The notes under the pieces: generated by a model
Database searches by the model: none
The model's input: the letters and a program-made list of their open reading frames with translations, nothing else
What the model was told of the DNA's origin: nothing
Part shown: piece by piece, positions 28,892 through 33,302 of the stretch
How positions within the stretch are numbered: position 1 is the stretch's first letter
Layout of the letters: each line of letters begins with the position of its first letter
Source: an uncultured Elusimicrobia bacterium
GTDB taxonomy: Bacteria; Elusimicrobiota; Elusimicrobia; Elusimicrobiales; UBA9959
Assembly: GCA_903867985.1 (NCBI GenBank)
Contig: CAIPTO010000089.1
Location: forward strand, 1 to 33,302
DNA: 33,302 nucleotides
Direction of reading: 5' to 3'
Position numbers and translations under genes: made by a program

Positions 28892-29740
28892 ATGAAAAAA
28901 CTATTAACCATGGTTATGATAGTCACCTCGGCTGGCCTGGCCTGCGCGGGAGAAACCGAAACGACGGCCCTGAACGCCGCCAGCCTTACTGGAGTGAACA
29001 TATCCGCCATGCGGGCGATAGACGTCCCCGCGGCGCCTGCGGCTGTCAAAGTGACATCCTCCGCCAGCTGGATAAAGGCCGTGAAAAAGGAATATTTAAG
29101 ACTGCTTGATACCGGAAATATACAAAGCCTACCGGCAGCCAATATCTCTGAACTCCCCGACGCGGCCAAACAGCAACTGAAGGAAGATAACACTAATCTG
29201 GGACCGGATTACCCCTCTATCGCTTATAAAATGGAATTACAGGGCGCCACCGCTTTCATTATCCATAATGAAAACGACGGGGGAATGTTCACCACTATTT
29301 TCGACGAAATAGGACAAAAGATCGCAGAAGGCAGCTGCGGGGAAAGCGGTGAATTTTCCTGGGACACCTCCAAAGGCGCCGCCATACGGAAAACCAATGC
29401 CCTGGCAGCGGTGAAGGGTACGCCCACCTATATGTGGGTAAAAGCCGTTAAAAAAGAATATTTAAGGCTGTTCAATGAAGGCAATCTCGGAACCCTGCCC
29501 GTGGCTAAAATATCGGAACTTCCCGCCGACGCCAAGCAGCAGCTTAAGGCGGACAATACGGCTTGGGGACCGGAGTATCCCTCCATCCCTTATAAAATGG
29601 TACTACAGGGAATGACCGCTTTCATTATCCATAACGAGAACGACGACGGCATGTTCGTCGCGATATTTGATAAGCGCGGAAACTATATCGCTGCCGGATT
29701 CCGCGATAACGGCGGAACCTTCGCCTGGGACGATATTTAA
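28892..29740 (+). CDS. secreted protein of two 99-residue repeats, function unknown
   Basis: I do not recognise this 282-residue exported protein. A signal peptide occupies residues 1-19 (MKKLLTMVMIVTSAGLACA); the lipobox is poor, so signal peptidase I cleavage is more likely. Two repeats, residues 60-158 and 182-280, align over 99 positions without gaps and share about two thirds of their residues. Shared blocks include KAVKKEYLRL, ISELP, the motif TAFIIHNEND and a final WD. The spacing is 122 residues. It has its own promoter-like sequence and a downstream terminator, so it is probably monocistronic. A periplasmic or surface role is inference. Confidence 0.82.
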   Translation: MKKLLTMVMIVTSAGLACAGETETTALNAASLTGVNISAMRAIDVPAAPAAVKVTSSASWIKAVKKEYLRLLDTGNIQSLPAANISELPDAAKQQLKEDNTNLGPDYPSIAYKMELQGATAFIIHNENDGGMFTTIFDEIGQKIAEGSCGESGEFSWDTSKGAAIRKTNALAAVKGTPTYMWVKAVKKEYLRLFNEGNLGTLPVAKISELPADAKQQLKADNTAWGPEYPSIPYKMVLQGMTAFIIHNENDDGMFVAIFDKRGNYIAAGFRDNGGTFAWDDI

Positions 29741-29835: not shown

Positions 29836-30900
29836 CTACACCGCCCTATTACCTTTCCCGCCCAAAGACAGCTCTTTGCGGTACTGGGCGATGGAGCGCC
29901 GTGAGAGTTTCACCCCGTACCTCTTCTCAAGCGCAAACCCCAACTCAGCGTCGGAAACATCCGGCCTTTCCGAGGCCAGAGCGTAAAGCCTTTCCTTATT
30001 CACATCTTTGGAACTGGGCAAAAGCGTAGTCATGGGTGCCTCGGTGCCCCAGGGCAACTGCACCGACTTATTGGAAACCAGCCGGTTCAGGACGCTCGTA
30101 TCCACCCCCAGGTTCTTGGCCAAAGTCCGCTGCGACAGCGGCCTGCGGCGGGAAGGCTCTCCGCTGGTAAGGAAATCCGTCTGTACGCTTATCAGCAACT
30201 CAAGCGCGCGGTAAAGCGTGGTCTTGCGCTGATCCGTAAATTCAAGGCGCTTCAGAAGATTCTCAATTTTATTTCCGTCCGCAGCGGAAAGGGCCGCGGC
30301 GTATTGCTCCAGCTTTTCCCTGTTCACGCGGTAACGCCCCTTCCACACTTCCCGGTTAAAGAACGCCAGCACCGGTGAACCGTCCTCAAGCTCTATTCCG
30401 GCCACGGCGCTGAAAACTTTTTCGGGCAGGGGAGCCGGCGCCCCCTCAAATTCCCCGTGAATAAAAGCGCGGTTAACAAAATCCCTGAGCCTGACGGCGT
30501 CTTCCTTTGTTATGCCGCATACTTCCGCCCTTTGAGCGTCGGTCCTCTCCCCGTCTTTAAGGAAACAGGTCTCAAAATTCTCCTGCCCTATCCGCTGCAT
30601 CAACCCCACCAGATCCCCGCCGCCATCGGCAAGATCGGGAAGGTCCCCGGCTGAAAGCCTGAGGCCATAGCCGGCGAAATTCTTGGCCGCGTAACGGGCG
30701 CTCGGGAACTCGGCCAGATTCACCACGCCGGCAGTCTTCAGCAGTTTAAAAAGTCTGGAGCTTTCCAGCTCTTTTAACTGTTTTTCAAAATCACCCTCCG
30801 ACATCTCCATGAGCCCGGCCAGCTTCAGCCGCCCCTGCATCACGGCTGAGGCTCTTGCCGCCAGCCCGTGAGTTAAGCGCATCCTGGGAATTTTATTCAT
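29836..30900 (-). CDS. short, divergent sigma-54 (RpoN-like) factor
   Basis: A sigma-54-family RNA polymerase factor of 354 residues, clearly shorter than the usual 430-500. Region I-like sequence is at 7-53 (RLTHGLAARASAVMQGRLKL, then FEKQLKELESSRLFKLL). The core-binding region includes LLKRLEFTDQRKTTLYRALE at about 215-234. The helix-turn-helix is at about 255-290 (LSQRTLAKNLGVDTSVLNRL, then NKSVQLPWGT). The RpoN box reads SRRSIAQYRK at 333-342 against the consensus ARRTVAKYRE. An acidic region II is lacking. The usual LKYFF block after the PxG motif is replaced by MTTLLP. It is divergent from a GAFTGA activator gene, and a -24/-12 element precedes it. It is probably a specialised paralogue. 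Confidence 0.85.
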   Translation of the reverse strand: MNKIPRMRLTHGLAARASAVMQGRLKLAGLMEMSEGDFEKQLKELESSRLFKLLKTAGVVNLAEFPSARYAAKNFAGYGLRLSAGDLPDLADGGGDLVGLMQRIGQENFETCFLKDGERTDAQRAEVCGITKEDAVRLRDFVNRAFIHGEFEGAPAPLPEKVFSAVAGIELEDGSPVLAFFNREVWKGRYRVNREKLEQYAAALSAADGNKIENLLKRLEFTDQRKTTLYRALELLISVQTDFLTSGEPSRRRPLSQRTLAKNLGVDTSVLNRLVSNKSVQLPWGTEAPMTTLLPSSKDVNKERLYALASERPDVSDAELGFALEKRYGVKLSRRSIAQYRKELSLGGKGNRAV

Positions 30901-30970: not shown

Positions 30971-30986
30971 AGCAATTTTTATGCCA
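30971..30986 (-). promoter_or_regulatory. -24/-12 (sigma-54-type) promoter of the sigma-54-like gene
   Basis: The minus strand reads TGGCATAAAAATTGCT, matching the sigma-54 consensus TGGCAC-R-N4-TTGCW except for one base, with the invariant GG and GC ten bases apart. The predicted start is near 30960, about 60 bases before the ATG at 30900. Confidence 0.75.
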
Positions 30987-31074: not shown

Positions 31075-31114
31075 TATTTTCATTTGAAAATATTTATTTT
31101 CGTTTGAGAATGTT
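31075..31114. promoter_or_regulatory. two tandem 20-bp partly palindromic sites, likely regulator binding sites
   Basis: Two adjacent 20-base units at 31075-31094 and 31095-31114 differ only by three A-to-G changes. The first contains ATTTTC-ATTT-GAAAAT symmetry. They lie 115-154 bases upstream of the predicted sigma-54 start at 30960, a normal enhancer distance. They also lie just ahead of the divergent activator gene, so they may control both directions. Confidence 0.6.
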
Positions 31115-31141: not shown

Positions 31142-32515
31142 GTGACTAAATTAAATATCCTTGTCGTGGAAGACGATAAACTGGCGCAGAAAGTCATGTC
31201 CGGCCATTTACGCGCTCACAATGTTGATCTGGCGGGCGACAAAAAAACCGCTTTAGCAAAATTGGCAAATGGCCATTACGACATCTGCTTTTTTGACCTT
31301 ATGCTGGGGCCTAAAGACGATTATTCCGGCTTGAAGCTGATCCCTGTCGCCGTCTCCAAGGGCTTTTACTGCGTGGTAATGTCCGGCTCCGACTCCGACG
31401 AAATAATAAACAAGGCTTACGGTCTGGGCTGTAAAGATTTTTATTCCAAAGGCAATGAGGAGTCCAACGTTGAGGCTGTTATCAGAAAATATTTCCAGAG
31501 CAGGACCGGAACAGCCGGCGCCGATGTTTTTTCAAGCCGCTTCGTGACCTCGGACCCCGCCACCAGGGCCGTCGTGAGCGAAGCTCTTAAATACGCGCCC
31601 TCGGAATTACCCATTCTTATCCTGGGCCCCTCCGGCTCGGGCAAAACCTCCCTGGCCAAAATTATCCACGACTATTCCGGCAGGGAAGGCTCTTTTGTGG
31701 CCATCAATTGCTCCGCCTACACCGAAGACTTGCTTGAGGCTGAACTTTTCGGCCATAAAAAAGGCGCCTTCACCGGGGCCGGAGAAACCCGCAAAGGCCG
31801 CCTGCTGGAGGCTCACAAAGGAACCTTGTTCCTGGACGAGATAGGCACCATGAGCCTTAACATGCAGATGAAACTGCTCAAAGCCATAGAGGAGCGCTCT
31901 TTCTACCCGCTGGGCTCCGATAAACCGGAGCATTCAGAATTCCGCATAATAAGCGCCACCCTGGAAAACATACAACAACTCATTTCGCAGGGGAAAATGC
32001 GCCTGGACCTGTTTCAGCGCATACACGGATTCACCATAGACCTGAGCCCGCTGAGCCGCAGAAAGGACGATATTTTCCCGCTCCTAACTCACTTCACGGC
32101 CGGCACCAAACGGCTGGCATTTTCTCCGGATGCGAAAGCCTATATTCAGAATTATACCTGGCCGGGCAATGTCAGAGAGCTGAAAAGATTTTCCGAGCTT
32201 CTGGTCAGCGGCTCGGAAGGGAGGATAGATCTTGAAGCGGTAAAACAACATCTTACCGCCTCCGACCCCGCCGCACCGGCAGGGAAATTATCAGGGGGCG
32301 ACGCCTATCGGCACGCCCTGGCCAACGGCCTTGAACGGACCTTGGACCGGGTAGCTTACGAGATAATCCAGCGGAGCATGACGGAGAACGGGGGCAAAAA
32401 GACCGGGACGCTTTCGGACCTTAAAATTTCAACGCGTTTTCTCTACGCCACTTTGAATAAATTCGGGGCGGTGGCTGCGCGCAAAGACAAGCAACCGCAG
32501 GGGGATGAACAATGA
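31142..32515 (+). CDS. NtrC-family sigma-54 activator (receiver, AAA+, Fis-like)
   Basis: A bacterial enhancer-binding protein of 457 residues that remodels sigma-54 polymerase with ATP. The receiver is at 4-116, with E10-D11-D12, phosphoacceptor Asp52 and Lys103. The AAA+ domain has Walker A GPSGSGKT at 162-169, the sigma-54 contact loop GAFTGA at 208-213, Walker B LFLDE with D232-E233, RLDLFQRI, and WPGNVREL. The C-terminal segment (YEIIQRSMTENGGKKTGTLS, then ISTRFLYATLNKFGA) is a divergent Fis-type helix-turn-helix. The start is GTG with AGGGGG at 31130-31135. It overlaps the DHp gene by four bases and is divergent from the sigma-54-like gene. Confidence 0.92.
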   Translation: MTKLNILVVEDDKLAQKVMSGHLRAHNVDLAGDKKTALAKLANGHYDICFFDLMLGPKDDYSGLKLIPVAVSKGFYCVVMSGSDSDEIINKAYGLGCKDFYSKGNEESNVEAVIRKYFQSRTGTAGADVFSSRFVTSDPATRAVVSEALKYAPSELPILILGPSGSGKTSLAKIIHDYSGREGSFVAINCSAYTEDLLEAELFGHKKGAFTGAGETRKGRLLEAHKGTLFLDEIGTMSLNMQMKLLKAIEERSFYPLGSDKPEHSEFRIISATLENIQQLISQGKMRLDLFQRIHGFTIDLSPLSRRKDDIFPLLTHFTAGTKRLAFSPDAKAYIQNYTWPGNVRELKRFSELLVSGSEGRIDLEAVKQHLTASDPAAPAGKLSGGDAYRHALANGLERTLDRVAYEIIQRSMTENGGKKTGTLSDLKISTRFLYATLNKFGAVAARKDKQPQGDEQ

Positions 32516-32700
32516 GCCAGCCTGACGACCTGAGCAAACTGCTGCACGATATCAAAGGAAAATGCGCCAGCATCAAAGGCGCGGCCGACTTATTCCGGGA
32601 TTGTTCGGTGGAAGAAAAACGGGAGATGCTCGCCCTCATGAGCGAGGCCGCGCGAAACATCTCCGGGACTTTGCTGGAACTGGGCAAAACTCTTAAGTAA
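32512..32700 (+). CDS. stand-alone histidine-kinase DHp-like domain, 62 residues
   Basis: A tiny protein that resembles only the dimerisation and phosphoacceptor helices of a sensor kinase. Helix 1 carries the H-box-like KLLHDIKGKCASIKGAADLF with His12. Helix 2 is EEKREMLALMSEAARNISGT, ending in LLELGKTLK. There is no ATP-binding domain in the gene or after it on this strand. Its ATG overlaps the activator's stop (ATGA) behind AGGGGG, so it is coupled to the response regulator. It could act as a histidine phosphotransferase in the manner of Spo0B/ChpT or as a dimerisation modulator; this is inference. A truncated kinase remnant is less likely because the gene is neatly coupled. Confidence 0.65.
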   Translation: MSQPDDLSKLLHDIKGKCASIKGAADLFRDCSVEEKREMLALMSEAARNISGTLLELGKTLK

Positions 32701-32815: not shown

Positions 32816-33202
32816 CTACGACCAAGGTGGTTCTTTCCCGGCGACTTTTAGCCAGGGGAGATGCGCGAACTTTTCGGGGGCGTGGCCGGTGGCCATGGTT
32901 ATGTCGGTAAAACCTTTTTCATGCAGGTCTTTGGCGATGTCTTCGCCTTTAATATCGCTTCCCAGATCTGAATCTATATACACAGGCGTGTCTTTAGGCA
33001 AAGTTTCTATACCGGCGGCAAAATCTTTTGGGGTTTTATAAGCTTTTAGTCCCACACCAGCCGCTTTAGCCGCCAACTTCCAGTTCATGTGAACCAGCAT
33101 ATCGTCGTCTAACAGGACAACCTGGTGGTCGGCACCATGCATTACTACGCTGGGAAGCTCTATCAGGACAGTCGTGCCTTTGCCAAGTGCGTTTTCCGGA
33201 GC
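32816..33202 (-). pseudogene. 3' remnant of a hybrid histidine kinase, truncated by an IS21-type end
   Basis: Read on the minus strand, the first native residues ENALGKGTTVLIELP are the last strand of a histidine-kinase ATP-binding domain. A receiver domain follows: VVLLDDDMLVHMNWKLAAKA, phosphoacceptor-type Asp in PVYIDSDLG, and a conserved-looking end GHAPEKFAHLPWLKVAGKEP. The kinase H-box, N-box and G-boxes are missing. Upstream the frame enters terminal repeats of a mobile element and meets a TAA at 33301-33299. So only the C-terminal receiver and a stub remain. A short GTG-started product from 33235 could in principle still be made. Confidence 0.8.
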
Positions 33203-33302
33203 AAAGTAGCCACCATTCCGCTGTAAAGTAGCCACTATTCCGTTACAAAGTAGCCACCGTTCCGGTGAAAGTAGCCACCCCTGTTTTTGATGGGGTGATT
33301 AA
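33203..33302. mobile_element. terminal repeat array of an IS21-type insertion sequence (edge of window)
   Basis: AAAGTAGCCAC occurs four times at 33203-33213, 33225-33235, 33247-33257 and 33268-33278, at 21-22 base spacing, with TTCCG between the first three pairs. Multiple short terminal repeats of this kind (GTGGCTACTTT on the other strand) are typical of IS21-family ends. The transposase and helper genes would lie right of the window; a minus-strand TAA at 33301-33299 may be the end of the helper gene, but that cannot be shown. The exact element end, near 33193-33203, is ambiguous because it blends with the kinase sequence. Confidence 0.7.

Follow-up and report, generated by a model that had tools for sequence, protein, structure and literature searches.

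The 33,302-nt stretch of Elusimicrobiota DNA analysed here (the window) encodes a short relative of sigma-54, which is very probably a functional sigma factor in the standard form of its phylum and the core of a self-contained module with its own activator, enhancers and promoter dialect and a small regulon. The initial annotation had recognised the gene from its landmarks, and the matches of the DNA-binding domain and RpoN box to sigma-54 profiles confirm that it is genuine. The annotation had also taken it for a specialised paralogue devoted to its neighbouring genes, and here our results differ. The features of the module are listed in Table 1.

Table 1. Features of the compact sigma-54 module and its putative promoter targets in the genome
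Feature	Location	Strand	Description
Compact sigma-54 gene	30900..29836	minus	354 aa, ATG at 30900
Parts of the 354-aa protein			region I-like N-terminus, reduced core-binding part, sigma-54 DNA-binding domain, RpoN box SRRSIAQYRK
-24/-12 promoter of the sigma-54 gene	30986..30971	minus	TGGCATAAAAATTGCT, 86 nt upstream of the start codon
Enhancer (UAS), copy 1	31076..31091		perfect palindrome ATTTTCATTTGAAAAT, 105 bp upstream of the -24 element
Enhancer (UAS), copy 2	31096..31111		ATTTTCGTTTGAGAAT, exactly 20 bp from copy 1
Cognate activator	31142..32515	plus	receiver, AAA+ sigma-54 activator with GAFTGA, degenerate HTH; divergent from the sigma-54 gene
H-box mini-protein	32512..32700	plus	62 aa, stand-alone, HisKA/DHp-like; ATGA overlap with the activator stop
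Target a	window		the sigma-54 gene itself
Target b	C125		two tandem 31-32-aa class III lanthipeptide precursors (MTKILNLQKLE...), LanKC synthetase, ABC transporter
Target c	C66		46-aa and 65-aa peptides, radical SAM enzyme nearest YydG-type epimerases, below cut-off
Target d	C66, second site (L315 ~1370-1605)	minus	short peptide with three FTSGFNRAPELE-type repeats in tandem; promoter and enhancer pair upstream
Target e	C86		radical SAM/SPASM enzyme nearest RiPP maturases, below cut-off; ABC transporter
Target f	C87		96-aa Cys-rich peptide with SLNLTEGDVLTLEKAKDRMEFEALP leader
Target g	C125, first site		start of a 46-aa peptide copy, cut by the contig end

Domain composition and predicted fold

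The C-terminal 130 residues form the DNA-binding domain, with the RpoN box at its end. Residues 221-347 match Pfam Sigma54_DBD (PF04552) with an E-value of 7.6e-15 (55.4 bits, cut-off 22.8), a profile match that takes in the RpoN-box region, and PF04552 is matched by all 15 members of the set A1. Both arginines of the box are retained, and five of its ten positions, exactly as had been noted from the sequence, depart from ARRTVAKYRE; this deviation from the consensus is normal within the clade of the window protein. The supposed loss of the LKYFF block after the PxG motif was overstated, as an altered stretch is still there, reading LPWGTEAPMTTLLP in the window protein and PWGEEKPLKxFF in other members. 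Against the curated rpoN_sigma model (TIGR02395), the protein scores 59 bits, below the cut-off of 277. By these profile matches, it is a sigma-54 homologue and a structural variant, outside the canonical rpoN equivalog as curated.

For the remainder of the window protein, Pfam recognises no activator-interacting (region I) or core-binding domain; specifically, Sigma54_CBD (PF04963) has no match in it. We aligned a profile of 115 relatives to a profile of eight canonical sigma-54 proteins. Residues 5-56 align with residues 3-52 of E. coli RpoN (P = 7e-4; best of 30 column shuffles 0.064), a weak but colinear match that agrees with the region I-like start of the initial annotation. Residues 120-145 align with E. 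coli residues 231-256, about 26 residues near the end of the core-binding domain (P = 0.0035; best shuffle 0.096); of the core-binding block described earlier, only this segment aligns. Residues 57-120 have no counterpart in the canonical profile. Since these residues are unaligned and PF04963 is unmatched, neither the acidic region II, already noted as lacking, nor the first core-binding subdomain can be recognised, if they are present at all. Judged by profiles, the protein retains region I and its DNA-binding half but no region II, and its first core-binding subdomain has been either lost or remodelled beyond profile recognition. The 115-member profile was required for region I, as a profile from 15 relatives detected only the DNA-binding half; a forced global alignment to E. 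coli RpoN misplaced the N-terminus and was discarded.

An AlphaFold model of the protein, based on 15 sequences, is of moderate confidence (pLDDT 64). In a PDB fold search with this model, the top 24 matches were all sigma-54 chains (E-values 5.5e-9 to 5e-4), and the next match had an E-value of 0.26; the TM-scores of the sigma-54 matches, obtained from this pLDDT 64 model, were 0.23-0.34. The predicted binding of core RNA polymerase by the compact sigma-54 has the unmatched Sigma54_CBD profile and the low TIGR02395 score against it.

Distribution in the genome and the phylum

The window comes from a 2.6 Mb Elusimicrobiota MAG (G000) of about 92% completeness. The window gene is not the sole copy in it: three genes match PF04552, the other two being a second short sigma-54 of 350 aa on contig C86 and a protein on contig C111 in which the DNA-binding domain is fused to a GIY-YIG-like tail. 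A second, canonical rpoN in this host was searched for with Sigma54_CBD, and none was found even at E<=10. Among 295 genomes of the phylum, 190 of them at least 90% complete, PF04552 is present in 115 and PF04963 exceeds its cut-off in one. On a tree of the DNA-binding domain, the short forms group together, apart from the eight canonical RpoN proteins, with a support of 0.887, and the window protein lies in a clade supported at 0.993, which we named type A.

These results speak to the proposal that the gene is a specialised paralogue beside a canonical housekeeping RpoN, which would have been missed in an incomplete genome. The completeness of about 92% would permit this, and the two short sigma-54 genes and the fusion protein indicate that duplication and specialisation do occur. 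However, the absence of a canonical rpoN across the phylum makes it unlikely that one is hidden by incomplete assembly, the one genome with Sigma54_CBD over the cut-off (G070) has no activator at E<=1e-35, and the co-occurrence with activators described below is accounted for by the short forms alone. With short forms the rule, we consider a paralogue of this kind highly unlikely. As the short form is ordinary in the phylum and short forms group together on the tree, the window protein clusters with the ordinary sigma-54 of its lineage, a result that the initial annotation had itself named as speaking against its reading. From this distribution, the compact form is, by all indications, the ordinary, main kind of sigma-54 in Elusimicrobiota.

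The sole canonical RpoN of the phylum sample (L056, on contig C115 of G070) may lie on a mis-binned contig, since G070 lacks a strong sigma-54 activator. The C111 protein (L003:1222-2274, also L121) has a sigma-54 DNA-binding domain without an evident region I, and a similar fusion to a GIY-YIG-like C-terminal domain is found in G021, a genome without a sigma-54 activator at E<=1e-35.

Promoters and enhancers

In 1.3 Mb of related loci, the pattern TGGCA[CT]-Nx-TTGC is present 64 times with x = 5, against 0-6 times with each other x between 0 and 15. A spacer of five is the canonical -24/-12 spacing. Many of these N5 sites are directly upstream of sigma-54 genes themselves, and for 101 type-A sites whose gene is clear, the median distance from the -24 T to the start codon is 64 nt. 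A search of the whole genome with TGGCAH-N5-TTGCW gave 10 matches (control 2), six of them with the identical sequence TGGCATAAAAATTGCTC; one further promoter, at the second C66 place, is the TGGTAT variant TGGTATAAAAATTGCTC. In total, this promoter class has about seven members in the genome, that of the sigma-54 gene included. The enrichment at this one spacing, together with the presence or absence of sites according to the sigma-54 clade (see below), constitutes strong genomic evidence for the predicted reading of -24/-12 promoters by the compact sigma-54, whose gene appears to be autoregulated through its own promoter.

Within the window, no type-A -24/-12 site was found except that of the sigma-54 gene, and a secreted protein with a duplicated domain (28892-29740) was therefore dropped as a member of the regulon. 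This protein consists of two near-identical repeats, is encoded tail to tail with the sigma-54 gene and has only chance-level Pfam matches.

The two palindromic enhancer copies separate the sigma-54 promoter from the activator gene, which is divergent, and are common to both. The type-A palindrome, ATTTTCA-NN-TGAAAAT, is found upstream of 59 of 104 type-A promoters (at least 12 of 14 positions matching) against 0.0 in shuffles, at a median position of -100. Nine copies with at most one mismatch exist in the genome, all at five promoter loci (the window, two on C66 and two on C125), each of which has its promoter about 100 bp away. For two of the seven promoters the search was negative, with no palindrome upstream of the C87 promoter and none at the usual distance at C86. 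These two promoters (L218 and L220, respectively) share another stretch about 80-150 bp upstream, AAAATTCCC...GGGAAAATA-like, which is perhaps the site of a second activator, encoded on contig C83.

Taken by itself, a short and divergent gene with low scores to the curated rpoN models could be a decaying one whose function is gone. We regard this as extremely improbable, given that its frame is open, that the protein is 61-67% identical to eight orthologues in other genomes, and that the gene has kept a consensus promoter and enhancers of its own within a conserved gene order.

Target genes

Genes for class III lanthipeptides, radical-SAM RiPPs and short peptides follow the six promoters other than that of the sigma-54 gene (Table 1, targets b-g). 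On C125, the LanKC synthetase scores 735.1 bits with NF038151 (cut-off 575) and the class III lanthipeptide precursor 24 with NF038154 (cut-off 22). The radical-SAM enzymes score below the equivalog cut-offs, which leaves their chemistry uncertain. The C66 peptide with FTSGFNRAPELE-type repeats looks like a multi-core RiPP precursor. In other genomes, the leader of the C87 peptide recurs beside a radical SAM protein of 470 aa; many of the type-A promoters there lie ahead of genes for secreted proteins that bear a DFDG-type motif. The expectation that the sigma factor serves its neighbouring genes is correct in that the set is narrow, but its putative members, apart from the sigma-54 gene itself, are mostly dispersed RiPP and peptide loci, not neighbours.

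The activator and the H-box protein

Of the 295 genomes, 115 encode AAA+ activators (PF00158, E<=1e-35). Sigma-54 (PF04552) and a GAFTGA activator are found together in 111 genomes, with four genomes having only the one and four only the other (p = 1e-70, calculated over phylogenetically non-independent genomes), and the divergent, adjacent arrangement of the two genes is conserved in the type-A clade.

The core-binding domain being reduced beyond recognition, the protein might alternatively be a sigma-54-derived DNA-binding protein that has lost core binding and acts as a repressor or decoy on -24/-12 sites. The related C111 protein, in which region I has gone and a GIY-YIG-like domain has been added, speaks for this alternative. 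The window protein, however, has retained region I, which is useful only for activator-controlled polymerase; activators with intact GAFTGA have been retained beside the gene; and the genome has no other sigma-54 class to read the promoters. A repressor or decoy thus seems unlikely to us.

A protein resembling the 62-aa H-box protein of the window (59-64 aa) is encoded at the same place in 17 of the 18 loci of relatives that span the end of the activator, and in most loci its start overlaps the activator stop. The Pfam HisKA match of the window protein reaches an E-value of only 0.08, and none of the curated families fits it. Its role may be to feed the activator's receiver domain or to drain it. 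Further downstream, at 32816-33302, the window contains a C-terminal fragment of a histidine kinase-like ATPase together with a receiver-like part; upstream of this fragment, at the contig end, is a repeated GTAGCCACC-type sequence, possibly the scar of a mobile element.

From these parts, we propose that the module works as follows. A signal would lead to phosphorylation of the receiver domain in the divergent activator, a step in which the H-box protein possibly takes part. The activator would bind the pair of 16-bp palindromes that lies some 105-125 bp upstream and, through its GAFTGA loop and ATP, would remodel the polymerase that holds the compact sigma-54 at TGGCATAAAAATTGCTC promoters, opening them as in canonical systems. 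The sigma-54 gene, being among its own targets, would provide positive feedback; the other targets would be scattered modified-peptide loci (the class III lanthipeptide cluster, radical-SAM RiPP clusters and short repeat peptides) and, in sister genomes, additionally secreted proteins.

Type A and type B modules

Many sister genomes carry a second sigma-54 clade, type B. It has an activator, an enhancer and a promoter dialect of its own and would run separately. The activator of type-A genes (INCSAYTEDLLEAELFG..KGAFTGA) is divergent and typically 75-260 bp away; type-B genes have an activator in the same direction, about 1.1 kb downstream. Type-B promoters read TGGCAAAGTCGTTGCTA and precede a large surface protein, and the type-B upstream motif, TGTAGA-N6-TCCACA, was found in 16 of 25 cases against 0.4. 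Within the family, the eight genomes with type A only have one to seven A sites each and zero B sites, and six of the seven with type B only have no A sites, an association that is partly phylogenetic, as genomes are not treated as independent events. If anything it is understated, since G208, scored as lacking type A, appears to have a type-A relative (locus L007). In G028, a genome of the same genus as the window, sigma-54, activators and sites are all absent.

This clade-specific pairing suggests that the two modules are insulated from each other. In a broader reading, which we advance tentatively as possible but somewhat short of probable, the short forms would represent a strongly reduced sigma-54 class spanning the phylum, with a minimal or different interface to core polymerase. 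This class would have diverged into two or more modules insulated from one another, each with a sigma factor, an activator, an enhancer and a promoter dialect of its own; one would be a dedicated RiPP/secreted-peptide regulon whose activator pairs with a 60-aa stand-alone H-box phosphotransfer protein.

Comparison with known sigma-54 systems

Canonical RpoN has 477 aa in E. coli; a structure from Aquifex is 5ui5. The compact form shares with canonical RpoN (TIGR02395) the DNA-binding domain, the RpoN box and a region I-like N-terminus and, by prediction, -24/-12 promoters, GAFTGA activators and the overall fold. It differs in its length of 354 aa, an unrecognisable region II and first core-binding subdomain, the altered block after PxG, a score far below the equivalog cut-off, a -24/-12 promoter of its own and a small regulon. 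It probes the minimum core-binding domain that a sigma-54 needs, and is used by a large part of the phylum.

Multiple RpoN systems exist in Rhodobacter/Cereibacter sphaeroides, Bradyrhizobium, Xanthomonas and Ralstonia. As in these, Elusimicrobiota genomes may have two or more sigma-54 copies with divided target genes; the RpoN1 and RpoN2 promoters of R. sphaeroides have been reported to differ at position -11 (PMC3162934). In the genome analysed here, all copies are compact and none is canonical. The Elusimicrobiota clades further differ by a physically linked activator, an enhancer of their own and a promoter dialect that deviates at several spacer and flanking positions. Such natural, apparently orthogonal sets of sigma-54, activator and promoter are of interest for synthetic circuits.

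Sigma-54 has been reported absent from Elusimicrobium minutum, the sole Elusimicrobia genome surveyed earlier (PMC3162934), and a search by title and abstract among open-licence papers on Elusimicrobia with sigma-54 or RiPP found no earlier description of the system. In Myxococcus xanthus, sigma-54 promoters and EBP sites drive natural-product genes (PMC7910581); the promoters there are mostly intragenic, the clusters are of polyketide/NRPS type and the sigma-54 is an ordinary one (PMC7910581). The Elusimicrobiota system likewise appears to place natural-product genes under sigma-54 promoters and EBP sites, but the promoters are intergenic, the clusters are RiPP clusters and the promoters detected in the genome are almost all of the natural-product kind. 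Promoter and paired palindrome together offer a sequence rule for locating peptide natural-product loci in this uncultured phylum.
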